Under the pieces are notes generated by a model. The model did not search any database. It was given only the letters and a program-made list of their open reading frames with translations, and was not told the origin of the DNA. Of a DNA stretch of 64,000 nucleotides, positions 41,123-52,051 are shown piece after piece; the first letter of the stretch is position 1; each line of letters opens with the position of its first letter. Made by a program: the position numbers and the translations under genes. The stretch is from Amycolatopsis viridis (GTDB lineage: Bacteria; Actinomycetota; Actinomycetes; Mycobacteriales; Pseudonocardiaceae): NCBI RefSeq assembly GCF_011758765.1, contig NZ_JAANOU010000001.1, forward strand, positions 4,712,001-4,776,000, written 5' to 3'.

Positions 41123-41773
41123 TCAATCCTCCCCGTGCCAGTGCCACCACTGATCGAGAACGTCCGCGCGCGGGTGCACCGAGCCGGGGCTACCGAGGTC
41201 GACGATGTGCACACCGCGCCAACGCCGGAAACCAGCTCTCTCCAGCTTCGCGGCGGCCCGGAGGGCGGTCGTTTCGGCGGCCTCGCGGGAGGCGCCGCCA
41301 CCGCGGAATTCCTGCGGGGATACCCGGCACACGGCCAGCCGGGCGTGCGGGGCCATGATGCGTAGCGCACTCGCGGTGAGCGCCGCGCCGAGCCCGTGGC
41401 CGCGCCAGGGCTCCTCGATACCGATCGAGCGGAGGACGATCAGGCGAGGCGGGCCATCGCTGATCATGCTGTCCAGCTCGGGGTGCAGGCCGCCGCGGTC
41501 CGGGTCGATGACGGTCTCGGCGATGAACTCCAACGCCCACTCGCCGAGCACGACGGAGTCCAGCAGGTTCCGTTTCCTGGTGAGGTCGGCGACCGCGAAC
41601 ACGATGTCCCCCACGTGCCGGAGGTCGTCCCGGCAGCGCTCCAGGTGGGAAATGTCGGCGGAGGCGTCCCACTGCTCCGGTTCCTCGTCCTCGTCGTCGA
41701 TCCGCCACCAGAACCGTCGGTGGGTCAGCGTCAGCTCGATCGAGAGCGGGTTCGCCGGGAGAGCAGGGACCAT
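41123..41773 (-). CDS. GNAT-like hypothetical protein
   Basis: A 216-residue protein. The centre (IGIEEPWRGHGLGAALTASALRI begins the match) carries an R-G-H-G-L-G acetyl-CoA loop like that of GNAT acetyltransferases, and ERAGFRRWRG resembles the C-terminal GNAT beta strand. The N-terminus is Trp/Asp-rich and unlike known domains. It precedes the TetR gene by 4 bases and is probably cotranscribed. Substrate unknown; acetyltransferase activity is inference. Confidence 0.7.
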   Translation of the reverse strand: MVPALPANPLSIELTLTHRRFWWRIDDEDEEPEQWDASADISHLERCRDDLRHVGDIVFAVADLTRKRNLLDSVVLGEWALEFIAETVIDPDRGGLHPELDSMISDGPPRLIVLRSIGIEEPWRGHGLGAALTASALRIMAPHARLAVCRVSPQEFRGGGASREAAETTALRAAAKLERAGFRRWRGVHIVDLGSPGSVHPRADVLDQWWHWHGED

Positions 41774-41824
41774 GACCGTCGCCCTTCACGTGGTGTCATG
41801 CCAGACCAGAAGAAGCGGTCCCGG

Positions 41825-42052
41825 CTAGGAACGGGCGGTCTGAGGCCTGTCGACCACGGTGAACTCTCGGGTCAGCTCGATGAGCATCACCCCGGCTTGG
41901 TCGACGGCAGGCATGTCCTCCGGCCGGAGATCCCTCCCCGCCGCCGGCGCCCGAACCGCCCGCGGTCCCGGCCCAGGCCGATACCTCAGGTGACGCATCG
42001 GCACCTCCGACTCGACGCGCAGGACGCCGGATACCGGAACGGTCGTTGACAT
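41825..42052 (-). CDS. Small hypothetical protein
   Basis: A 75-residue protein with no known domain, ending IELTREFTVVDRPQ. Three close starts compete: ATG 42070, GTG 42058 and ATG 42052. GGAGG at about 42063-42067 favours one of the latter two. It is 51 bases upstream of the GNAT-like gene on the same strand. Short but with coding-like third-position GC. Function unknown. Confidence 0.45.
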   Translation of the reverse strand: MSTTVPVSGVLRVESEVPMRHLRYRPGPGPRAVRAPAAGRDLRPEDMPAVDQAGVMLIELTREFTVVDRPQTARS

Positions 42053-42542
42053 GTTCACGTGATCCTCCACGCCGCCGCCGTGGGGGCGGGGCCGTCCGTG
42101 GTTCCTGCGCTGTCACATCGCTGGTCGTCGCTGGTCGCACTGACTTGACCGGCGCGGGCCGCCGCCCCGGCGGTTCACGGTGTTGTTCCGCTGCGCGCCG
42201 GAGCTCGGATCAAGCGCAGCAACTTGCTGCAAGTTAAGTATTACCGAGCCGACGGTATCCAAGTCAACTCAACCGCAAGTATTTACTCCATAGAGGTCAA
42301 CTCAAGCCATTGCCACGGCCATGCTCATCCCCGTTTGCTTGCTACGCAGTTAAGTCCCGGCCGGAACCAACAGCAACACGTTTGCGGCCAGGGCGAGCAG
42401 CACTCGTGGTGACACCAGTGACCAATGCGGCCAGTCTCGTCCGAACCCAGGCCTCGGTCCACGTTGGACGGTACGCGTGCAGGAACATGTGTGGTGGCCT
42501 CGGCGGATGTGGCGCGCCGCGGTCCGGGCTGGGGGTAACGGC
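42053..42542. other. 490-base intergenic region with AT-rich core and repeats
   Basis: No convincing gene is visible. The core 42200-42370 has a distinctly lower GC than the rest of the window. It holds two overlapping 15-bp palindromes (GCAGCAA-C-TTGCTGC at 42215-42229 and AACTTGC-T-GCAAGTT at 42221-42235) and a direct repeat GTCAACTCAA at 42263-42272 and 42296-42305, spaced 33 bases apart. It lies downstream of the three-gene operon and upstream of the small-protein/GNAT/TetR genes, and looks like a regulatory or horizontally acquired segment. Confidence 0.5.
42215..42235. repeat. Two overlapping 15-bp palindromes
   Basis: GCAGCAA-C-TTGCTGC (42215-42229) and AACTTGC-T-GCAAGTT (42221-42235) share nine bases. 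Only one of the two hairpins or dyads can form at a time, which suggests a compact protein-binding site. Confidence 0.55.
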
Positions 42543-43934
42543 TCACACCGCCAGAGGTGCGCTCGCGGAGGCCCGGTCGTGGCGCGCCCATTCACGTAGC
42601 CGGGTCACTTCCGCATGCCGGAAAGCCCTGGCGAGCCGGATGAGCGGCAGGTCCTGGGCGATCTGGGCTTTCAGGGAAACCGGCTCCGCCGCGATGTCCG
42701 GCATGTCTTCGTATGTCTCGATGCCCGCCGGGGTGATCTTCACGAAGATCGTCGCTGTGTGTGGTGCGATGTCGGTGGCGTGCGCGAGGAGCTGACGTAC
42801 CCGGTTGGCGCGCTGGGCGGCCGTGTCCGTCCGGCATTCGTCGTCGAAGGCGTCGAGCGCCGACGCGAGTTCCGCCGCTTTGACCAGTGCCTCGGTCTTT
42901 GCCCGGGACCGCCTCATCGGGGCGGCTCGCACCCGTTCCGCGATGCCGGGATGTACGTATGGCTCCAGCGCAATGCGAACGTCCTGGATCTCTCCGGTGA
43001 TCCAGGTGCGCTGGACGCCGAGGTCGTCGTCGTCGCAGTCGAGCAGGAGATCCGCGGGCAGTGCATTGTGCAGGGGGGCCATGGCGTGGACGGCCCACCA
43101 GGCCCATCCGAGCAGAAGCCGCTCCATCACCGCGGGCGCCCACACCAGCCATGTCGCTCCGAGGACCATGGGCGCGAAGGTGGCCGCCGAGAGGATCTCG
43201 CTGATCGTGGTGTTGTCCAGCACGGCGTTGCCGCCGTACTGGTCTGCCCACGCACCCGCGATCTGCCGCCCGGCCAGGACGAAAGCGAGTACGCCTCCGC
43301 TGATCTCCAGCCAGACGCTGATCACGACCCGCCGCGGAGGTTCCTCCCGGCGGAGATACCTGCTGCAGATGACGAGGAACTCGGTGACGCCGACGGCGAT
43401 GTACAGGGCGTAGATCGCCCGGATCCAGTCGAGGCGGGGCTCCCCACCGTGGGCTGGGAAAGTAGCGACGTTCGGCGGGTTGTGCAGGCCGATCGCCAGC
43501 ACGGTCATGGCGATGATGCTGCCCAGGAGCGTCAGCACCCGCCGGATGGTGCGCCGCCGACCGCTGGAACCGTTCTCCTCGAGTGTGCTGGCCAGCATCG
43601 ACAGCACCGAAAAGGTGGCGATGTTGGACAGGACGCAGCCGAGGAGGTAGACGACCGTTGGCGGCAGGCCGGCTTGCACGATCGTGTGGTTGGTGGCCGG
43701 GTCCCAGAAGAGCGCGGTAAGGCCGCCGGCGATGAAGACCGCGCAGAAAAAACCGAAACCCGGATCACCGGATCTCAGTCCGCGTGCCTGCAGAGCGACG
43801 ACTGCCAGCACCGCTCCCGCGGCGGCGCCGGTGCCGTACCAACTACCCGACCGCACTCCCACTACCAGCACAGCGGCGACCGCCAGCAAGACTGCCACGC
43901 CGACACCGCGGCGACACCAGCTCCGCATGTTCAT
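42543..43934 (-). CDS. MAB_1171c-type multi-spanning membrane protein
   Basis: A 463-residue protein. About eight hydrophobic helices fill residues 10-290; the remaining 170 residues are a hydrophilic, helical cytosolic domain (from about LLLDCDDDDLGVQRTW). This matches the uncharacterised actinobacterial family annotated as MAB_1171c putative transporter. ATG 43934 overlaps the stop of the HExxH gene (ATGA), so translation is coupled. The recurrent partnership with an HTH protein and an ImmA-like protein suggests a membrane signal receiver rather than a nutrient transporter, which is inference. Confidence 0.75.
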   Translation of the reverse strand: MNMRSWCRRGVGVAVLLAVAAVLVVGVRSGSWYGTGAAAGAVLAVVALQARGLRSGDPGFGFFCAVFIAGGLTALFWDPATNHTIVQAGLPPTVVYLLGCVLSNIATFSVLSMLASTLEENGSSGRRRTIRRVLTLLGSIIAMTVLAIGLHNPPNVATFPAHGGEPRLDWIRAIYALYIAVGVTEFLVICSRYLRREEPPRRVVISVWLEISGGVLAFVLAGRQIAGAWADQYGGNAVLDNTTISEILSAATFAPMVLGATWLVWAPAVMERLLLGWAWWAVHAMAPLHNALPADLLLDCDDDDLGVQRTWITGEIQDVRIALEPYVHPGIAERVRAAPMRRSRAKTEALVKAAELASALDAFDDECRTDTAAQRANRVRQLLAHATDIAPHTATIFVKITPAGIETYEDMPDIAAEPVSLKAQIAQDLPLIRLARAFRHAEVTRLREWARHDRASASAPLAV

Positions 43935-44641
43935 CCTCGCCGGCCGCGCCGGCTGGTGCTCCCGAGCAGCGACTCAAGGGCGGTACGGGGTTTCCACCGT
44001 CTCATCGCGTGAGCGACATCGGTCGTGTAGTGCTCCAGCAGGCGCGCCGACGCTTCGGCCTGCTGTTCGGTCGCCGTGTCGTAGACGTCCCGGCCCAGGA
44101 TGGCGATGGGTTGTTCCCCGCGCACGATGGCGAGGAGTTCCTTGTCCTCGTCCACCAAGCCTGGCGCCACCCGCTGCCAGAACGTGCGCCGCTCCGCATC
44201 AGCTTCTTCGTCGGCGTGCGCATGCCCGGCATCCCCACCGGGATCCCCCGGCGTGGCTGGGCCGGCCGCTGCGTGGGTACCGATTTCACGGTAGTGGAAG
44301 TACTCGTGCCACCACACCCGCCGGCCGACGTCGGGGCCACCGCGCCCGGGCACCCGGTCACCGACCACGACCAAGTCGCACTCCTCGTACTGCACGGTGA
44401 ACCCGCACGTGACACTGCCGATGGGGCCCCGAGCGAAGTAGATGGTGCGGCCGCGACGTTGCGACTCCAGCCAGAACAAGTCCTGGGGCCGCAGCGGCCC
44501 GTCGAACCGCTGCTCGTGCATCTCGATCACTGCCATCGCGGCCACCTTGGCGGCCTCGAGCACCCCGGGATCCACCCGGCGGAGAAAAGGGTCCGAAGAC
44601 ACCAGCCGAGCGCTGCCTGCAGAGGCGCGGTTGCCGGACAC
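43931..44641 (-). CDS. ImmA/IrrE-like protein with HExxH motif
   Basis: A 236-residue soluble protein. WWHEYFHY carries an HExxH zinc-protease motif (His112, Glu113, His116), as in the ImmA/IrrE family that cleaves partner HTH repressors. A His/Glu/Asp-rich segment follows at about 125-150. GTG 44641 begins 3 bases after the HTH gene stop. The gene order HTH, HExxH protein, membrane protein mirrors repressor/anti-repressor protease pairs such as ImmR-ImmA. Proteolytic activity and target are inference. Confidence 0.7.
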   Translation of the reverse strand: MSGNRASAGSARLVSSDPFLRRVDPGVLEAAKVAAMAVIEMHEQRFDGPLRPQDLFWLESQRRGRTIYFARGPIGSVTCGFTVQYEECDLVVVGDRVPGRGGPDVGRRVWWHEYFHYREIGTHAAAGPATPGDPGGDAGHAHADEEADAERRTFWQRVAPGLVDEDKELLAIVRGEQPIAILGRDVYDTATEQQAEASARLLEHYTTDVAHAMRRWKPRTALESLLGSTSRRGRRG

Positions 44642-44644
44642 TCG

Positions 44645-45439
44645 TCATTCACCCCCCTCGTAGCGGGGCGCGAGAAACTCCGGTCCTGCTGCCGGGGGCA
44701 GCGATGACGCGGCTCGCGCCCGCTCCAGCTCCTTGACCACTTGAAGGAGCCCCGCCAGATCCATGTGCTCGGCTTGCCTGGCCGCCACCGGCACGCCATC
44801 GAGGCGCCAGCGCAGCTCCAGGAAATGACTGATCTCCGCCTCGTCGTACTCGGTCTCGCGACGGAACAGCTTGAGCGTCGCGTGGAAGAACTGCGCGATG
44901 GCGTCGAACGCCTCCGCACTGATCAGGCGAATCGGGTGCCGTCTTCCCTGGAGGAGGTCCGCCACTTCGGAGGCGGTCCACTGTTCGCCGGTCTTGTGAC
45001 TGAGGTGGCCGGCCAGCTCCGGCACGGTGTAGCCACCGCCGCTGGGCCGCTCCTTGTCGGCGAACAGGCGGACGACGAAGTTGAGGCGGGTGACCAGCTC
45101 GTCGAAGCCGGCCGGCTCGTTGATCTCCAACGTCAGCTCGACGATGCGTGCGACCACCTCGTCGCCCGGCCACGGGCGCAGCTGGTTGAGCAAGTGGTCA
45201 CCGATGCCGAAGTACAACGCCATGGCGCCGATGCCCCGGCTCCCGGGGTTGTCGATCTCTCCTTTGAGCAGCTTGCTGACCTGCGCCTCGGTCCACTGAC
45301 CGGCGTGCTGCTGGACGAACTCCGCGCAGTTGCGCTGGTTGAAAGCCTTGCCGTCGGTCGGCCGGGTCCGTCCCCGGTAGCGGGCGAAGAAGAACCTCGC
45401 CCGTTCCGCGGTGGACAGAGGTCGGTAAGCCTCAGACAT
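44645..45439 (-). CDS. Tandem-HTH (XRE-like) regulator
   Basis: A 264-residue protein with two similar helix-turn-helix-like modules, at about 33-81 (QWTEAQVSKLLKGEIDNPGSRG) and 138-192 (QWTASEVADLLQGRRHPIRL). Both read Gln-Trp-Thr, a helix, and then a charged turn, so they look like an internal duplication. ATG 45439 is chosen since the upstream frame is not coding-like. It leads the three-gene operon. It could be the substrate of the neighbouring HExxH protein. Confidence 0.72.
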   Translation of the reverse strand: MSEAYRPLSTAERARFFFARYRGRTRPTDGKAFNQRNCAEFVQQHAGQWTEAQVSKLLKGEIDNPGSRGIGAMALYFGIGDHLLNQLRPWPGDEVVARIVELTLEINEPAGFDELVTRLNFVVRLFADKERPSGGGYTVPELAGHLSHKTGEQWTASEVADLLQGRRHPIRLISAEAFDAIAQFFHATLKLFRRETEYDEAEISHFLELRWRLDGVPVAARQAEHMDLAGLLQVVKELERARAASSLPPAAGPEFLAPRYEGGE

Positions 45440-45776
45440 CAACGCCCCACCCCCCGTGGGCTCACACCCGATACGACCATCGGGAGGTTGCAGTGCGGTC
45501 GACTCCCCCTGGTAACGACAGCCGCCCGAGCTTAACCGAGACACAAGTCTCCGGAAAGGGGCCAGCGCGCACGCCCGTAGAACTTGACTGGAAGAGGAAC
45601 TGGGCACTCCGAGCTGACCCACGGGAACCCGCCGATACCCCCGCGTGAGGTCGCCCGCCTGCTCGCCGAGGCTGAGCGCCGACCACGGGAGTCCGGGCTG
45701 GAGTGCTGGTCACCGGGTTATGGTGTGCTGGTCCCGTTCCGCGGAACGGGCTTCTGGTGCGGAAAGGTGGGCCCGG
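45440..45776. promoter_or_regulatory. Divergent control region between the tandem-HTH operon and IclR gene
   Basis: No gene is visible in these 337 bases. They include a small dyad GAGAC-ACAA-GTCTC at 45538-45551 on the operon side and the 18-bp palindrome on the IclR side. Promoters for both divergent units must lie here. Confidence 0.5.
45733..45750. promoter_or_regulatory. 18-bp perfect palindrome, likely IclR operator
   Basis: CCCGTTCCGCGGAACGGG is a perfect palindrome whose end lies 26 bases before the IclR start. IclR-family proteins commonly bind palindromes with a GTTCC/GGAAC-type core, and they usually bind near their own promoter, so this is a strong autoregulatory operator candidate. 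Confidence 0.65.
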
Positions 45777-46535
45777 ATGGACAAACCGTTCAAGGCGCCG
45801 CCGCCGTACGCTGTCGCCAGCGTGGACAACGCCCTGCGGATCGCGGCGATGTTGCAGCTCGAAGGCCCGCTGACGGTCACCGAGGTCGCCGAACGGATCG
45901 GCGTCGCGGCCTCGACCGCGCACCGGCTGCTCGCGATGCTCGTGTACCGCGATTTCGCGGTTCAGGACGCCAACCGGGCCTACCGGGTCGGTCCGGTGCT
46001 GGAGCTGGCCGCCCATTCGCAGTCCGCGGCCTCGCGGCTGCGCGCGGCCGCGCTCCCGCATCTGCGCCGCCTGGTCGACCTGCTCGACGAGTCCGCGAAC
46101 CTGACCGTCCGCACCGGGGTCAAGGCGCGCTTCATCGCGAGCGTGGAGTGTTCGCAGGCGTTGCGCGTGGGCTCTCGCGAAGGGATGGTTTTCCCGGTCC
46201 ACGAGACGACGGGCGGCCTGCTGCTGCTCGCCGAACTGCCACCCGAGCAGGTCGAGGAACTGTACGCGGTGAACGAGCCCGGCGACCGGCCCGACCTGGC
46301 CGAACTGCGGGCGGACCTGGCGCGCGTGCGCCGCAGCGGCTTCGCGCTCAACCAGGGCCGGTCCGAACGGGGAGTGGTCGCCGTCGGAGTCCCGGTGCAC
46401 GGGGCCGACGGCGCGGTCGTCGCGGGGCTGTCGGTGTCGATGCCGAGCGTGCGGTACCGGAAGGATCAGCTGCCGGTGCTGGTGGCGACGCTGCGCACCA
46501 CCGCGGTTGCGCTGGAGGCGGACCTGCGCGGCTAA
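45777..46535 (+). CDS. IclR family transcriptional regulator
   Basis: A 252-residue regulator with an N-terminal winged HTH (VTEVAERIGVAASTAHRLLAML is the recognition region, about 33-55) and a C-terminal IclR effector domain (about 80-250). IclR proteins often control aromatic catabolism, which matches the hydroxylase/dioxygenase genes 0.8 kb downstream. ATG 45777 follows the 18-bp palindrome. Its stop overlaps the stop of the convergent TetR gene by 4 bases. Confidence 0.87.
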   Translation: MDKPFKAPPPYAVASVDNALRIAAMLQLEGPLTVTEVAERIGVAASTAHRLLAMLVYRDFAVQDANRAYRVGPVLELAAHSQSAASRLRAAALPHLRRLVDLLDESANLTVRTGVKARFIASVECSQALRVGSREGMVFPVHETTGGLLLLAELPPEQVEELYAVNEPGDRPDLAELRADLARVRRSGFALNQGRSERGVVAVGVPVHGADGAVVAGLSVSMPSVRYRKDQLPVLVATLRTTAVALEADLRG

Positions 46536-47182
46536 CGCGCGGCGATGACGCGCTCGGCGATGGCGACCATGGCTTCGGTGAGCAGTGCCATCTGGTCGCG
46601 CATGGACCGGTTCGGCTCTGCCTGCCAGGCGACGAACGCGCCGTCGAACCCGGCGATGCCGAAGTAGTCCAGCGCCTCGCCCACCGCGTCGGCGACCTCC
46701 GGTCCCAGGCCGGCCCACGACTGGCGGATCATCCGCCGCATGTGCCGGCGGCCGTCGGTGCGGACGCGCTCGATGATGTCCTTCACCTCGATGTCCTCAA
46801 CCGCCTCGGCGCTCATCAGCAGGATCAGGTGCAGCCGCAGGAAGTCGGGCTTCGCGACGAAGACCTCGCCGGTGCGCTGGAGGAACCACCCGAGCAGTTC
46901 GGCCGGCGGCAGGTCCGCGGGTGGATCGGCCTGCGCCTCGCGCAGGTGCCGGAAGAACTCGTACGCGCCGCGCTCCATGACGGCCGACAACAGGCCGCCC
47001 TTGGAGCGGAAGTGGTGGTAGATCGCGCTCTTCGGCAGGCCGGTCTCGGCGCTCAGCACCGACATGGTCGTGGCGGAGTAGCCGCGTTCGGCCATGATCC
47101 GCGACGCCGCGTCGAGGATCTCCTCCCGGGAACGCCGTCCCCGCCGGTTCCCGGCCCGCGCTGTGTCCACAGCGAGCAGCAT
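46532..47182 (-). CDS. TetR family transcriptional regulator
   Basis: A 216-residue repressor with HTH at about 18-65 (LSAETGLPKSAIYHHFRSKGGLL) and a ligand domain. ATG 47182 is the first start after a non-coding-like stretch. It is divergent from the catabolic operon, and ACCG-AACGAC-CGGT at 47268-47281 within the 120-base gap may be its operator. It probably represses the downstream hydroxylase-dioxygenase-hydrolase genes; the inducer would be a pathway intermediate. Confidence 0.87.
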   Translation of the reverse strand: MLLAVDTARAGNRRGRRSREEILDAASRIMAERGYSATTMSVLSAETGLPKSAIYHHFRSKGGLLSAVMERGAYEFFRHLREAQADPPADLPPAELLGWFLQRTGEVFVAKPDFLRLHLILLMSAEAVEDIEVKDIIERVRTDGRRHMRRMIRQSWAGLGPEVADAVGEALDYFGIAGFDGAFVAWQAEPNRSMRDQMALLTEAMVAIAERVIAAR

Positions 47183-47302
47183 AGGGCCGCGCGTTTTCTG
47201 CGCACCGGAATCTTCGGCGAGGCGCTTGACGGATCCCGAGGTGAATGTGATCGTAACCACTAATGAACCGAACGACCGGTACAAAACTGTGCGGAGCCTG
47301 CG

Positions 47303-48913
47303 ATGACTGAGCACTACGACGCCGACGTCGCTCTCGTCGGCTACGGCCCGACGGGCCTGACCGCGGCGCTGACCCTGGCCGGCAAGGGCGCGCGGGTCGT
47401 CGCGTTCGAGCGGGACCCGGACATCTATCCGCGGGCGCGGGCGGTCACGATCAACGACTGGACGATGCGGATCCTCCAGGACCTCGGCGTCGACGACCGC
47501 GTCGAGCGCGTGGTCGAGCCGCAGCGAGCACTGCGCTGGGTGACCTACGACGGCCACGAGGTGATGCGGGTCGAGCATCCGCCGAGCACGCTCGGCACCC
47601 GCGGGAGCAAGCCGCGGTTCTACAACATCTACCAGCCGGCTCTGGAGGCCGAGCTGCGCCGCTGCGCCGACGAGCGGGACAACCTCACCGTGCGCTTCGG
47701 AGCCGAGGTCGTCGCCGTCGATCAGGACGCCGACGGCGTGACCGTCACCGCGCGCGATCGCGTCACCGGGGAGGAGACCACCGTCCGCACCCGGTACGCG
47801 ATCGCGGCCGACGGCGGCTCGTCGCCGGTGCGCAAGCTGTGCGGAATCCCGATGCACGGCGACACGGGCAACACGCTGTGGATCGTCATCGACTGCCGGG
47901 TCAAGCGCTGGTGGCCGGATCGCGATTTCCTCACGTTCTGGACCGACCGGGAACGCCCGGTCGTCGACATCGCACTGTCAGCGGGCAACCACCGCTGGGA
48001 AATCCCGCTCAAGCCCACCGAGACCGAGGCGGACTTCCCGACCGACGCCGAGGTGTGGCCGCTGCTGCGCGCGCTGGGCGTGACCGGGGACGACGTCGAG
48101 ATCCATCAGTACGCGTTCTACCGGCACCACGTGCGGATGGCCGAAACCTACCGGCAGGGCAGGGTTTTCCTCGCCGGCGACGCCGCGCACCTGATGCCGC
48201 CGTGGGCGGGCGCCGGCATGCAGACCGGGATGCGCGACGCGTACGACCTCGGCTGGAAGATCGCCGGCATCGTCCGCGGCGAGCTCGGCGAGGAGTGGCT
48301 CGACACCTACGAACCGGAGCGCCGTCCGTCGGCCGAGTTCTACACCCGGATCGCGGTCGCGCTGGGGCGGGTGATCAAGCAGGAGGCGACCCCGGCGGAG
48401 ATCGAAGCGATGAACGCCGTCCCGCCGAACCTGGTCACCCCCTGGGAACCGCCGCTGAACGCACCGCCGACGCTCACCGCCGGCTGGCTGCGCGGCGAGA
48501 CGGGGGACGCGTCTGTCGTCGGCCGGTACCTCCCGCAGCCGCTCGCCTGCGACGCCGTTGGCCGGATGGACCGGCTGGATGCCTTGCTGCCCGGCGGTTT
48601 CCTCCTCCTCGGCAACGACGTCGACCCGGCCACCCTGCTGACCCCCGAGGAAAAGGCGGGCTGGGACGCGCTCGGCGCGTCCTACGTCGCCGTCCGCCCG
48701 CGAACCGCCTACACCCGCGCAGCCACCGACCTCGTGGACCTCGAGGACGCGTTGCTGCCGTGGCTCGACCGGTACGGCGTCCAGGCGATCGCCGTACGCC
48801 CCGACAAGTTCGTCGCGGCGGCCGACAAGACCGGCCTCGCCGTGCCGGGCCGCCCCTCTGCCACCGCATCCCACCAAGCGGCTGCGCCGCACCGAAAGGA
48901 AGAAATCCGATGA
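47303..48913 (+). CDS. FAD-dependent 3-(3-hydroxyphenyl)propionate hydroxylase-like monooxygenase
   Basis: A 536-residue flavin monooxygenase of the MhpA/phenol hydroxylase group. FAD motifs are GYGPTG (13-18), DGGSSPVRK near 173 and GDAAHLMPP near 292. The C-terminal 120 residues form the thioredoxin-like domain of the group. It should hydroxylate a phenolic substrate to a catechol with NAD(P)H and O2. Its stop overlaps the dioxygenase start (ATGA). Start ATG 47303. Exact substrate (hydroxyphenylpropionate or another phenol) unproven. Confidence 0.85.
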   Translation: MTEHYDADVALVGYGPTGLTAALTLAGKGARVVAFERDPDIYPRARAVTINDWTMRILQDLGVDDRVERVVEPQRALRWVTYDGHEVMRVEHPPSTLGTRGSKPRFYNIYQPALEAELRRCADERDNLTVRFGAEVVAVDQDADGVTVTARDRVTGEETTVRTRYAIAADGGSSPVRKLCGIPMHGDTGNTLWIVIDCRVKRWWPDRDFLTFWTDRERPVVDIALSAGNHRWEIPLKPTETEADFPTDAEVWPLLRALGVTGDDVEIHQYAFYRHHVRMAETYRQGRVFLAGDAAHLMPPWAGAGMQTGMRDAYDLGWKIAGIVRGELGEEWLDTYEPERRPSAEFYTRIAVALGRVIKQEATPAEIEAMNAVPPNLVTPWEPPLNAPPTLTAGWLRGETGDASVVGRYLPQPLACDAVGRMDRLDALLPGGFLLLGNDVDPATLLTPEEKAGWDALGASYVAVRPRTAYTRAATDLVDLEDALLPWLDRYGVQAIAVRPDKFVAAADKTGLAVPGRPSATASHQAAAPHRKEEIR

Positions 48914-49839
48914 CCGGAGTGAAGGAGCTCGCCTACGTCGTCTACGAGGTCCGCGACCTCGCCGAATGGGAACGCTTCGCGGTGTCCCTGCTCGGCATGC
49001 AGCTGGGCGAGAAGACCGCCGACGGCCTCACCCTGCGCACCGACGACAAGGCGCACCGCTGGATCCTCACCGAAGGGCCCGCGGACGACCTGGTCCGCAG
49101 CGGCTACGAGGTGACGTCGGCCGCGGAGCTCGACGCCCTGGTCGCGCGGCTGCGCGACGCGGGGATCGAGACCGTGGAAGGCGGCGCCGAGCTGGCCGCG
49201 GCGCGGAAGGTCGAGCGGATCGTGCTCGTCACCGACCCGCTGGGCAACGAACTCGAACTGGTCACCGGCCTGGCCGACGCCGCGACACCGTTCCACAGCG
49301 ATGTGCTGCTCGGCGGTTTCGTCACCGGAGCCGGCGGCGCGGGACACCAGGTGCTGCTGTCCAAGGGCGTCCCGCGCGAGACTTACCTGGCCTTCTACCA
49401 GGGGCTGCTCGGTTTCAAGCTCAGCGACATCATCGTCGAGGAGCTCGCGCCCGGCATCGTCGCCGATCTGGCCTTCCTGCACTGCAATCCCCGGCATCAC
49501 ACGGTCGCGTTCGGGGACATGCCGCACCCGAAGCGGACGCACCACTTCATGATCGAGGTCACCGACATCCGCGACGTCGGCCTGGCCTACGACCGGTGCC
49601 TCGATGCGAAGCAGCCGTTCGAGATGACCCTCGGGATGCACCCGAACGACCACATGTTCAGCTTCTACGTCCGCACGCCGTCCGGCTTCTCCGTGGAATA
49701 CGGCTGGGGCGGTCTGCTGATCGACGACGAGACCTGGGAGGTGCGCACGCTCGACCAGCTGCACTGGTGGGGCCACCGCGCCCCGGAGGTGGTTTCGGAG
49801 CTGCTCGGCGCGGCCGTCGTTCCCGGGGGTGAGCGCTGA
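48910..49839 (+). CDS. Extradiol ring-cleavage dioxygenase (VOC family, BphC-like)
   Basis: A 309-residue type I extradiol dioxygenase. Iron ligands match the BphC pattern: His146 in GHQVLL, a His in THHFMIEV (211 or 212) and Glu263 in FSVEYGWGG. It cleaves the catechol made by the upstream hydroxylase at the meta position. ATG 48910 overlaps the hydroxylase stop and its own stop overlaps the hydrolase start (TGATG), so the three genes are translationally coupled. Confidence 0.87.
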   Translation: MTGVKELAYVVYEVRDLAEWERFAVSLLGMQLGEKTADGLTLRTDDKAHRWILTEGPADDLVRSGYEVTSAAELDALVARLRDAGIETVEGGAELAAARKVERIVLVTDPLGNELELVTGLADAATPFHSDVLLGGFVTGAGGAGHQVLLSKGVPRETYLAFYQGLLGFKLSDIIVEELAPGIVADLAFLHCNPRHHTVAFGDMPHPKRTHHFMIEVTDIRDVGLAYDRCLDAKQPFEMTLGMHPNDHMFSFYVRTPSGFSVEYGWGGLLIDDETWEVRTLDQLHWWGHRAPEVVSELLGAAVVPGGER

Positions 49840-50663
49840 TGGCTTCCCGGTACGTGCAGACGCGTGACTGGAAGATCCACTACCACGAAGCCGGCGAGGG
49901 GCACCCGCTCGTCCTGCTGCACGGTGGCGGCCCCGGTGCGACCGGCTGGAGCAACTACGCGCCGAACATCGATGCGCTGTCGCGGCGTTTCCGGGTGATC
50001 GCCCCGGACATGCCGGGCTGGGGCGACTCCGACGGCGCGGACTTCGGCACGCTCGATCACGTCGAGGCCGCCTGCCAGCTCCTGGACGCACTCGGCATCG
50101 GCAAGGCCGCGTTCGTCGGCAACTCGATGGGCGGGCACACCTCGTTGCGCCTTGCCGTCGAGCGTCCCGAGCGGGTCTCGCACCTCATCACGATGGGGCC
50201 GCCGATCCAGATGAAGCCGTTCCTGTTCGGCGCGGGCGGCGGGCCGACCGAGGGCCTGAAGATCATGTTCGAGACGTACTCCGACGCATCGCCGGAGGGC
50301 ATGCGCCGGCTGGTCGAAATCATGGTCTACGACAAGGCCCGGTTTGCGACGCCCGAGCTGTGCCAGGAGCGTTCGGACGCGGCACTCGCACGGCCCGAGC
50401 ACCTGCGTGCCGTCGCCGCCGCCGTGCCGAAGGCGCCGATCCCGATCTGGCTCGATCTCGCGGCGGTCTCCCGGATCACCGCGCCGTCGCTGCTGATCCA
50501 CGGCCGCGACGACCGTGTGGTGTCGTTCGAATCGACGCTGTTCCTGGCGGCGAACATCCCGGACTCGCGGGCGGTCCTGATCAACCGGTGCGGGCACTGG
50601 GCCCAGCTGGAACACGCGGACGAATTCAACCGCCTGGTGACGGATTTCGTTCTGCACCACTGA
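49839..50663 (+). CDS. Meta-cleavage product hydrolase (alpha/beta hydrolase)
   Basis: A 274-residue C-C bond hydrolase of the BphD/MhpC/HsaD type. LLHGGGPGATGWSNY near residue 26-40 is diagnostic for the group, Ser96 in GNSMGG is the nucleophile, Asp224/225 in HGRDDR and His253 in CGHWAQLEH complete the triad. It would split the ring-opened product into a carboxylic acid and a 2-hydroxydienoate. The downstream dienoate hydratase, aldolase and dehydrogenase genes are not in the window. Confidence 0.87.
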   Translation: MASRYVQTRDWKIHYHEAGEGHPLVLLHGGGPGATGWSNYAPNIDALSRRFRVIAPDMPGWGDSDGADFGTLDHVEAACQLLDALGIGKAAFVGNSMGGHTSLRLAVERPERVSHLITMGPPIQMKPFLFGAGGGPTEGLKIMFETYSDASPEGMRRLVEIMVYDKARFATPELCQERSDAALARPEHLRAVAAAVPKAPIPIWLDLAAVSRITAPSLLIHGRDDRVVSFESTLFLAANIPDSRAVLINRCGHWAQLEHADEFNRLVTDFVLHH

Positions 50664-50711
50664 CACCAGCGCGCCCGGCTGGGCCGGCCGCTGTCGATCG
50701 AGGAGGATCAC

Positions 50712-51842
50712 ATGTGCATGTCGGGTCACGCCGGCGAGGACGCAGGTGAACGCGGCACGCTCGGCCGGCGCGGGCTGCTGACGGCGCTGGGCGGCGCGGG
50801 CCTGGCCCTGGGGCTGGCGGCCGCGAGCGGCGGACCGCTCGCGGCCGCCGCGCCGCCGGGTCCGGCCCCGCGAAAAGCGCACCTCGAGGTGGTGCTGCTC
50901 GGGACCCAGGCCGGACCACCGCCGAAACCGGACCGGGCCGGCATATCCACCGCCTTGCTGGTGGACGGGAGCATCTACCTGATCGACTGCGGGCGGTCCT
51001 CGCTGACCCAGTTCATGCGGGCCGGCCTCGACCTCACCGCGATCCGGTCGATCTTCCTGACCCACCTGCACATCGACCACATCGCCGACTACTACAACTA
51101 CGTCGCGCTGGGCGGCGCGCCGGTCAGCGGCGGGCTCGGCAGCACCGGGCCGGTCGGCGTGTACGGGCCCGGTTCCGCGGGCGGGCTGCCGCCCAAATTC
51201 GGCGGCGGTACCGCGCCGGTGGTGTCACCGCCGGATCCGGTTCCGGGCACCCGCGCGCTGACCCAGCAGTGGACGAACGCTGTCGCCTACTCCAGCAACC
51301 TGTTCATCCGCGACTCCGGCATCACCGATCCGACCACCCTGCTCGACGTCCACGAGATCGCGCTGCCCGACGTGGGAGCGAGCTTCACCAACACCGCCCC
51401 GGCGATGCGGCCGTTCCCGGTGATGAGCGACGACAAGGTCAAAGTGACCGCCATCCTCGTGCCACACGGTCCGGTGTTCCCCTCGTTCGCGTTCCGCTTC
51501 GACACCGCCTACGGATCGGTGACGTTCTCCGGCGACACCACCCGCAGCCCCAACCTCCTCGCCCTCGCCGAGAACACCGACCTGCTCGTGCACGAAGCGA
51601 TCAACCTGGAGGGCGCCCAGCTCCCGCCCGCGCTGCGGAACCACATGCTGGAGTCGCACGTCGAGGTCCAGTCGGTGGGCTCCATCGCCGAGGCCGCGCA
51701 CGCCAAACGGCTGGTCCTCAGCCACCTGGTCGACTTCGCGCACGATTCGATCGACGTGCCCCGGTGGCGGCGCTGGGCGCAGAACGGCTACACCGGCCCG
51801 GTCGCGGTCGGCACCGACCTGCAGCGGATCGCCATCGGGTGA
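50712..51842 (+). CDS. Tat-exported MBL-fold metallo-hydrolase
   Basis: A 376-residue metallo-beta-lactamase fold protein. Twin Arg (Arg19, Arg20 in LGRRGLL) and a hydrophobic Ala/Gly run indicate Tat export. HLHIDH (118-123) is the metal site, with further ligands in GDTTRS and LSHLVDF, resembling RNase Z/arylsulfatase-type enzymes. AGGAGG stands 5 bases before ATG 50712. It follows the hydrolase gene by 48 bases, so it is probably cotranscribed with the catabolic genes. Substrate unknown. Confidence 0.85.
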   Translation: MCMSGHAGEDAGERGTLGRRGLLTALGGAGLALGLAAASGGPLAAAAPPGPAPRKAHLEVVLLGTQAGPPPKPDRAGISTALLVDGSIYLIDCGRSSLTQFMRAGLDLTAIRSIFLTHLHIDHIADYYNYVALGGAPVSGGLGSTGPVGVYGPGSAGGLPPKFGGGTAPVVSPPDPVPGTRALTQQWTNAVAYSSNLFIRDSGITDPTTLLDVHEIALPDVGASFTNTAPAMRPFPVMSDDKVKVTAILVPHGPVFPSFAFRFDTAYGSVTFSGDTTRSPNLLALAENTDLLVHEAINLEGAQLPPALRNHMLESHVEVQSVGSIAEAAHAKRLVLSHLVDFAHDSIDVPRWRRWAQNGYTGPVAVGTDLQRIAIG

Positions 51843-52051
51843 CGCCGGCGGGACAACCGGTTGCCACGGCGAAGTGCGCTCAGCCGGTGATCGGGTACGG
51901 GTCGCAGCCCCCAGCCCGGCGTTGTCGTACGGTTGACAGGAAAACGTGGTGCAAGCGCGCCGTGCCCGGGCGTCACCTGCGCCCTGGGTGTCTCCGGCAA
52001 CGGCCGGTTCCTGCCCCGCTTCCGCGCCGACCGCCGACACGGGAGTTGACG

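Follow-up and report, generated by a model that had tools for sequence, protein, structure and literature searches.

The window analysed here, a 64,000-nucleotide stretch of the Amycolatopsis viridis genome (NZ_JAANOU010000001.1, positions 4,712,001 to 4,776,000), carries on its minus strand three closely packed genes. They encode an EspR-related regulator with two helix-turn-helix (HTH) modules (P0001, 44645..45439, 264 amino acids, ATG start), an HExxH protein related to a family of M78-type peptidases (P0002, 43931..44641, 236 amino acids, GTG start) and a membrane protein resembling DUF6545 and MAB_1171c proteins (P0003, 42543..43934, 463 amino acids). Sequence comparison indicates that these genes form a divergent version of a three-gene module that recurs in actinobacteria. 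The original prediction, made from the letters of the window, had reported three minus-strand genes with a 3-base gap and an ATGA overlap, and the coordinates confirmed this: the GTG start of P0002 lies 3 bases past the P0001 stop, and the P0002 stop overlaps the P0003 start at 43931..43934. This packing resembles that of one transcription unit. The three frames are real genes under purifying selection, because the ratio of nonsynonymous to synonymous substitution rates (dN/dS) relative to an ortholog genome of the same genus (G156) was 0.22 for P0001, 0.24 for P0002 and 0.37 for P0003, and because G308 holds a third ortholog trio, with identities of 55%, 59% and 58%, respectively. All three families are adjacent and on the same strand in the window and in the ortholog loci L115 and L227.

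The flanks of 337 and 490 bases are set by ATG codons at 45777 on the plus strand and 42052 on the minus strand. Comparison of the upstream regions of the three orthologs revealed short blocks in common and no clear operator. Identity to G156 is 96% for the block adjoining the operon on the right (45711-51850) and 84% for the operon itself (window 41135-51850 against L115). The place of the operon has been rearranged, since the corresponding block sits on its other side in G156 and 41135-41804 is inverted there.

To describe the surroundings of DUF6545 genes, we searched 200 genomes of the window's order with PF20182, which gave 88 places in 42 genomes, and analysed 87 of these, the 88th being the window itself. 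A script chose an HExxH-bearing open reading frame (ORF) in 79 of the 87 loci, with two wrong choices (L049 and L106), and the protease of locus L042, used as a query, detected 76 of 77 such HExxH proteins at E < 1e-7, itself counted. Scored with profiles, 80 of the 87 loci contain the protease, 86 the membrane protein and 70 an XRE-family gene, with all three in 70; this count is partly circular, as the profiles were derived from those same loci, and it retains in the denominator one locus without a profile match (L119). The membrane gene lies downstream of the protease gene on the same strand in 77 of the 80 loci that have both. With the protease as bait, named genomes yielded at least 594 stretches and at least 511 relatives, a locus being about 4 kb either side. 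Among the best 80 of these at least 511 relatives, a DUF6545-like membrane gene was present in 79 loci, downstream and on the same strand in 76 of the 79, and all three families were found in 71, with an XRE gene accepted at any position within the locus. The sole one of these 80 loci lacking the membrane gene is from Nonomuraea (L193). Some of the 80 come from genomes that also belong to the order set, so that the two linkage counts depend in part on each other.

Co-occurrence across genomes was scored in 200 genomes of the order, by their handles the same sample as above, at thresholds of E 1e-5 for the protease profile, E 1e-10 for the EspR-like profile and E 1e-3 for DUF6545. The protease was found in 54 genomes, the EspR-like regulator in 59 and DUF6545 in 42. 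Protease and EspR-like regulator occurred together in 49 genomes (Fisher P 9.4e-31) and DUF6545 and protease in 38 (Fisher P 1.3e-23), P values that overstate independence because the genomes share ancestry; all three families were found together in 36. The absences are soft, as the searches scored part of each genome's first-look candidates: five genomes had the protease without the EspR-like regulator and ten the reverse, while DUF6545 without the protease was seen in four and the protease without DUF6545 in 16. Inspection of seven of these 16 revealed a membrane gene missed by the Pfam model in six (L244-L248 and L261); in the seventh, no membrane gene was found near the protease-like gene (L258). 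Of the 22 genomes of the window's family that have a protease or a DUF6545 gene, 18 carry the two in equal number. Two trios are present in the window's genome, which has two members of each family by a count whose protease profile contains P0002; the second trio (L074, G000:C1:2396594-2406965) is a canonical one with a single-module EspR-like regulator. By both the linkage and the 200-genome counts, the co-occurrence and conserved order on which the original prediction depended hold in many genomes.

The best 80 protease-bait loci include Amycolatopsis, Streptomyces, Micromonospora, Kitasatospora, Lentzea, Nocardia, Rhodococcus and one Chloroflexi metagenome-assembled genome. The trio is common in some groups and not general, since PF20182 was found in 10 of 296 genomes spread over the phylum. 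DUF6545 matches also came from 31 plasmid and 2 phage records, and the five plasmid regions and one phage region examined matched all three profiles in every case (6/6), the XRE gene of the Streptomyces clavuligerus plasmid lying about 3 kb from the protease and membrane genes. The phage Gilgamesh (L236:2864-5215) carries genes for an HTH protein, a metalloprotease and a membrane protein in trio order. Viral contigs contained four protease relatives, two with all three genes and two in which the contig ends after the protease.

P0002 has a putative zinc-binding and catalytic motif, HEYFH, at residues 112-116 (44294..44308, minus strand), as the original prediction had noted. A second motif, EQQAE, at residues 192-196 (44054..44068, minus strand), aligns with the family's ExxxE by profile and may supply the third zinc ligand. 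An alignment (A1) that includes 34 of the 42 non-redundant relatives outside the window's own subfamily comprises 36 members with P0002; among these members, which were chosen by motif, the H, E and H of HExxH and two later glutamates, with EQQAE at the ExxxE position, are invariant. Of two other alignments, A3 includes 51 of 53 protease relatives and A4 50 of 50. The Pfam M78 model (IrrE/ImmA, PF06114) matched 22 of the 36 members at E 0.01, the L042 protein reaching 26.2 bits against a cut-off of 22. A family profile built without P0002 and its ortholog detected P0002 at E 1.3e-6, the best of 551 ORFs in the window (next, 0.044), and hhalign of P0002 against the canonical trio proteases gave E 6.7e-9, spanning the HExxH and ExxxE regions. 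With HEYFH, EQQAE and this match, P0002 combines an HExxH motif and a downstream glutamate with homology over the domain, as M78 proteins do. As a single-sequence query of genome contigs, P0002 found no relatives, and alone it matches 2 of 298 genomes of the order, the window's own counted; a search of solved structures with the protease profile gave nothing significant. These comparisons support a relation of the HExxH protein to a family that matches IrrE/ImmA (M78), and they indicate that P0002 is an outlier of this family, recognised only by profile.

The profile of the trio's XRE regulators matched mycobacterial EspR (3r1f) over its full length at E 2.8e-38. Further structure matches were 9sf2 (E 7.6e-9), 7t5u (E 1.5e-5), whose record says helix-turn-helix protein only and which we take to be CapH, and the immunity repressor 8bny (E 3.1e-5). 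The profile matches thus identify the trio's regulator family as EspR-type, a relation that the original prediction had overlooked, as it had the wide recurrence of the trio. P0001 was compared by hhalign with an alignment (A8) of 35 regulators hand-picked from 69 non-redundant ones, plus L128, which leaves out many of the most divergent. The first HTH module (residues 7-81, 45197..45421, minus strand) aligned at E 9.4e-7 over the HTH alone, and only the second (residues 124-245, 44705..45070, minus strand; E 7.2e-9) aligned through the EspR-like C-terminal tail. The two modules had been described as resembling each other; each matches the regulator family separately, but their mutual match was not significant (E 0.038). 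The library search gave P0001 a below-threshold HTH_31 match, and its single-sequence search matched no PDB chain. In the window's own genome, the regulator profile matched at E 3.9e-7 and 2.5e-4, and regulators with two profile-matching stretches also occur in L102, L103, L104 and L180. On this evidence, P0001 is a two-module relative of EspR-type regulators. Outside the tail, two regulators of one genus (f8 g27) are nearly identical to EspR in alignment, and for this reason we take the genus to be mycobacteria. In L244-L248 and L114, its espR-like gene is convergent to a protease-membrane pair.

P0003 was the sole operon protein named by the library search. Its DUF6545 domain (PF20182; residues 279-375, 42810..43100, minus strand), which is predicted to be cytosolic, scored 25.5 bits against a gathering cut-off of 24.4. 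P0003 also aligned along the NCBI model of the MAB_1171c family (NF042915), which NCBI labels 'putative transporter', at 54.8 bits against a cut-off of 100. The predicted structure (predicted local distance difference test, pLDDT, 82.7; predicted template-modelling score, pTM, 0.73) has eight long helices followed by a helical domain, and hydropathy gave eight segments, in agreement with the about eight helices originally proposed. Because most relatives begin about one helix later in the alignment, the comparison suggests that the membrane family has a seven-helix core and P0003 one extra N-terminal helix. Among 51 DUF6545 proteins, hydropathy gave seven segments in 15, six in 22, eight in nine and fewer in five. 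The mean charge per loop in the 15 seven-segment proteins favours an outside N terminus except at loop 6, and this is the probable orientation of the core. In a Foldseek search with the P0003 model, ranks 1, 2, 4 and 5 went to TAS2R14, with a best E of 0.17 (probability 0.98). Seven-transmembrane receptors or rhodopsins make up many of the 50 listed rows, but not all: rank 3 is TRPV4 and rank 6 srGAP2. We read this receptor-like appearance of the model as a likeness of topology, not homology. The membrane profile matched nothing significantly among solved structures. No description of DUF6545 was found in the open-access literature searched, where the membrane family is, as originally stated, almost without a described function, a MAB_1171c biofilm knock-out being the exception.

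Two loci contain a single ORF in which a protease-like domain with a degenerate HExxH is joined to DUF6545 without membrane helices (L104:4956-5900 and L230:4365-5312). They belong to two genomes of the window's genus and probably reflect one fusion event. The fusion points to direct contact between the two proteins and is the best hint of it. Another protease-membrane fusion (L041:3231-5462, 744 amino acids) was set aside; its genome is 74% complete, the HTH frame is broken and the joint is probably a sequence fault.

Beyond the observed linkage and family relations, we infer a trigger, a cleavage and a target site. We propose that a membrane signal is passed through the DUF6545 protein to an M78-type peptidase that cuts an EspR-type regulator, and we put the probability of this reading slightly above one half (about 0.52). 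The signal would alter the cytosolic DUF6545 domain of P0003, and the altered domain would activate or release the P0002 peptidase. P0002 would then cut P0001 in or near its C-terminal tail, removing the oligomer needed for the action of the regulator on DNA, and transcription of the operon and of other targets would change. Once the signal ended, newly made regulator would reset the switch. A DUF6545 trigger and an EspR-like tail as the target make the simplest reading because known M78/XRE pairs cut the regulator. In the sections of the sources cited here, IrrE cleaves DdrO within the dimerisation domain (PMC8072749), ImmA is required for the proteolytic inactivation of ImmR (PMC2701414) and CapP, with single-stranded DNA as activator, cuts CapH (PMC10904395). 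EspR minus its last 10 residues is described as failing to dimerise and losing espACD activation (PMC3315491).

Several observations weigh against this proposal. The same truncated EspR retains DNA binding (PMC3315491), so that clipping of the tail would not necessarily free the DNA. P0002 had no Pfam match at E 1, PF06114 included. Its EQQAE lies 75 residues past HEYFH, compared with 12-55 in 161 relatives scored by a first-match rule, and the ExxxE assignment rests on the alignments because that rule would give 29, not 75. The predicted P0002 model is weak (pLDDT 70.1, pTM 0.56) and its Foldseek search returned no solved structure at E 1e-3; what was originally called an ImmA-like protein is thus supported in its family relation, by profiles, and not in its fold. 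The P0003 model had no Foldseek match at E 1e-3 either, and a receptor reading draws on its topology and the matches given above. HExxH conservation in the family is biased, as the profile and the bait loci were selected by this motif, and the motif is lost in L104, L230, L228, L258 and a second copy in L054, so that at least these proteins may act without catalysis. Distances between the three proteins, compared pair by pair, are correlated across 143 loci (r 0.88, 0.84 and 0.74; permuted maxima 0.13 or less), which counts in favour of the proposal, but joint inheritance alone would produce such a correlation as well. Finally, nine loci of the presumed mycobacteria (L249-L257) and three of other genera (L259, L260 and L262) have an espR-like gene with no pair within roughly 3 kb either side. 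The genomes of two of the nine (G102 and G109) have trios elsewhere, and a neighbour gene of the pairless L250 matches L244 and L245, both with the pair, as would be expected if the pair had been gained or lost at a single site.

These pairless loci also bear on a wider idea that we hold as tentative and, taken whole, doubtful. EspR would be the DNA-binding arm of an ancestral module in which a seven-helix DUF6545 receptor, resembling a G-protein-coupled receptor, acts directly as the switch of a cytosolic M78 peptidase, which in turn cuts an EspR-type architectural DNA-binding protein. The orphan EspR of some mycobacterium-like genomes would then be a remnant after loss of receptor and protease, and the window would hold a two-module EspR variant.

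We consider it unlikely that the HExxH protein acts as an antirepressor without cleavage, binding the EspR-like protein or the DUF6545 domain, with sequestration at the membrane and catalysis dispensable. The relatives without HExxH would suit such a role, as would the degenerate motif of the protease-DUF6545 fusion. However, 164 of 166 strong family matches in L034-L204, with loci and profile both chosen by motif, retain HExxH, and 161 of the 164 also a downstream E..[AVS]E; of seven loci added later irrespective of the motif (L244-L248, L261 and L258), six retain HExxH. In L054:2992-3627 and L258:2956-3441, HGVGH and HGLAH, respectively, stand in place of HExxH, the former beside an intact copy.

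A role in transport, or in immunity or communication linked to a ribosomally synthesised and post-translationally modified peptide (RiPP), with P0003 exporting or sensing a peptide or other compound under a dedicated regulator, appears decidedly unlikely. It would agree with the NCBI family name and with a report in which loss of MAB_1171c, there labelled a transporter, cut biofilm by about half (PMC8707978, in the part cited). The S. clavuligerus plasmid has an LxmA-leader RiPP gene (L233:2886-3056) some 400 bases upstream of the protease-membrane pair, but the other loci contained no similar RiPP peptide, the best match there being at E 0.78. The top 25 groups of conserved small ORFs around the trio look like shadow frames of larger genes, and comparisons of family, fold and solved sequence, at the thresholds applied, revealed no known transporter. 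The original prediction had offered either a membrane sensor that triggers proteolysis of a DNA-binding partner or a small immunity or communication module. Its co-occurrence, gene order, M78 relation and scarcely described membrane family are borne out, whereas the immunity or communication branch gained no direct support except that one neighbouring RiPP gene in another species. A toxin-antitoxin system, with the HExxH protein as toxin, the HTH protein as antitoxin and the membrane protein as effector or immunity part, is very improbable: one plasmid annotation labels the protease gene 'toxin', trio copies occur on plasmids and in phage, and Xre/COG2856 pairs have been predicted as such systems, but the present sequence data give no indication of toxicity, and the same source, in the section cited, deems a protease cutting the Xre repressor most likely and has no conserved membrane partner in its scheme (PMC2701414).

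Regulator cleavage under control from the membrane, our preferred reading, would bear on how IrrE/ImmA-type peptidases are switched, which is debated, zinc and single-stranded DNA having been proposed as activators, including for IrrE (PMC8072749, PMC10904395, in the parts cited). The trio offers a genetically linked membrane partner, which makes activation of the peptidase from the membrane testable. It also links EspR, described without such partners in the section cited of PMC3315491, with a family of membrane proteins and with a protease. No statement of an EspR-protease-DUF6545 link was found in the open-access literature searched, and literature pairing CapP, ImmA, IrrE, M78, DUF955 and EspR had no EspR among the matches listed.

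Compared with known systems, P0003 resembles MAB_1171c/DUF6545 proteins in scoring above the Pfam cut-off and aligning along the NCBI model, and differs from them in its score under the NCBI cut-off and its extra N-terminal helix. In outline the arrangement is like that of BlaR1/MecR1, in which a signal sensed at the membrane brings a DNA-binding repressor under the control of a zinc protease; BlaR1 is one polypeptide, whereas the trio consists of separate genes. BlaR1 chains were among the non-significant fold matches of P0002, and no family relation between the trio and BlaR1/MecR1 was found. The CapP/CapH pair of the cyclic-oligonucleotide-based anti-phage signalling system (CBASS) likewise combines a peptidase with an HTH regulator, 7t5u being a weak match of the regulator profile; CapP itself (7t5t) did not match the protease profile significantly (E 1.0). 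In contrast to the switch proposed here, CapP is activated by single-stranded DNA (PMC10904395, in the part cited), and PADLOC returned 0 families at E 1 for any of P0001, P0002 and P0003, placing none of them in a known anti-phage defence system. IrrE(PprI)/DdrO of Deinococcus and ImmA/ImmR of ICEBs1 share with the trio an M78 (COG2856) metallopeptidase and an XRE regulator, which cleavage inactivates there; the sections cited of PMC8072749 and PMC2701414 describe no membrane partner, whereas here a DUF6545 gene follows the peptidase gene. EspR, the mycobacterial nucleoid-associated ESX-1 regulator, is matched over its full length by the trio's regulator family, and differs in having no protease or membrane partner described in the section cited of PMC3315491 and from P0001 in particular, which has two HTH modules and no PDB match. 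The components are thus of known kinds, and what is new is the EspR-type target together with the membrane partner.

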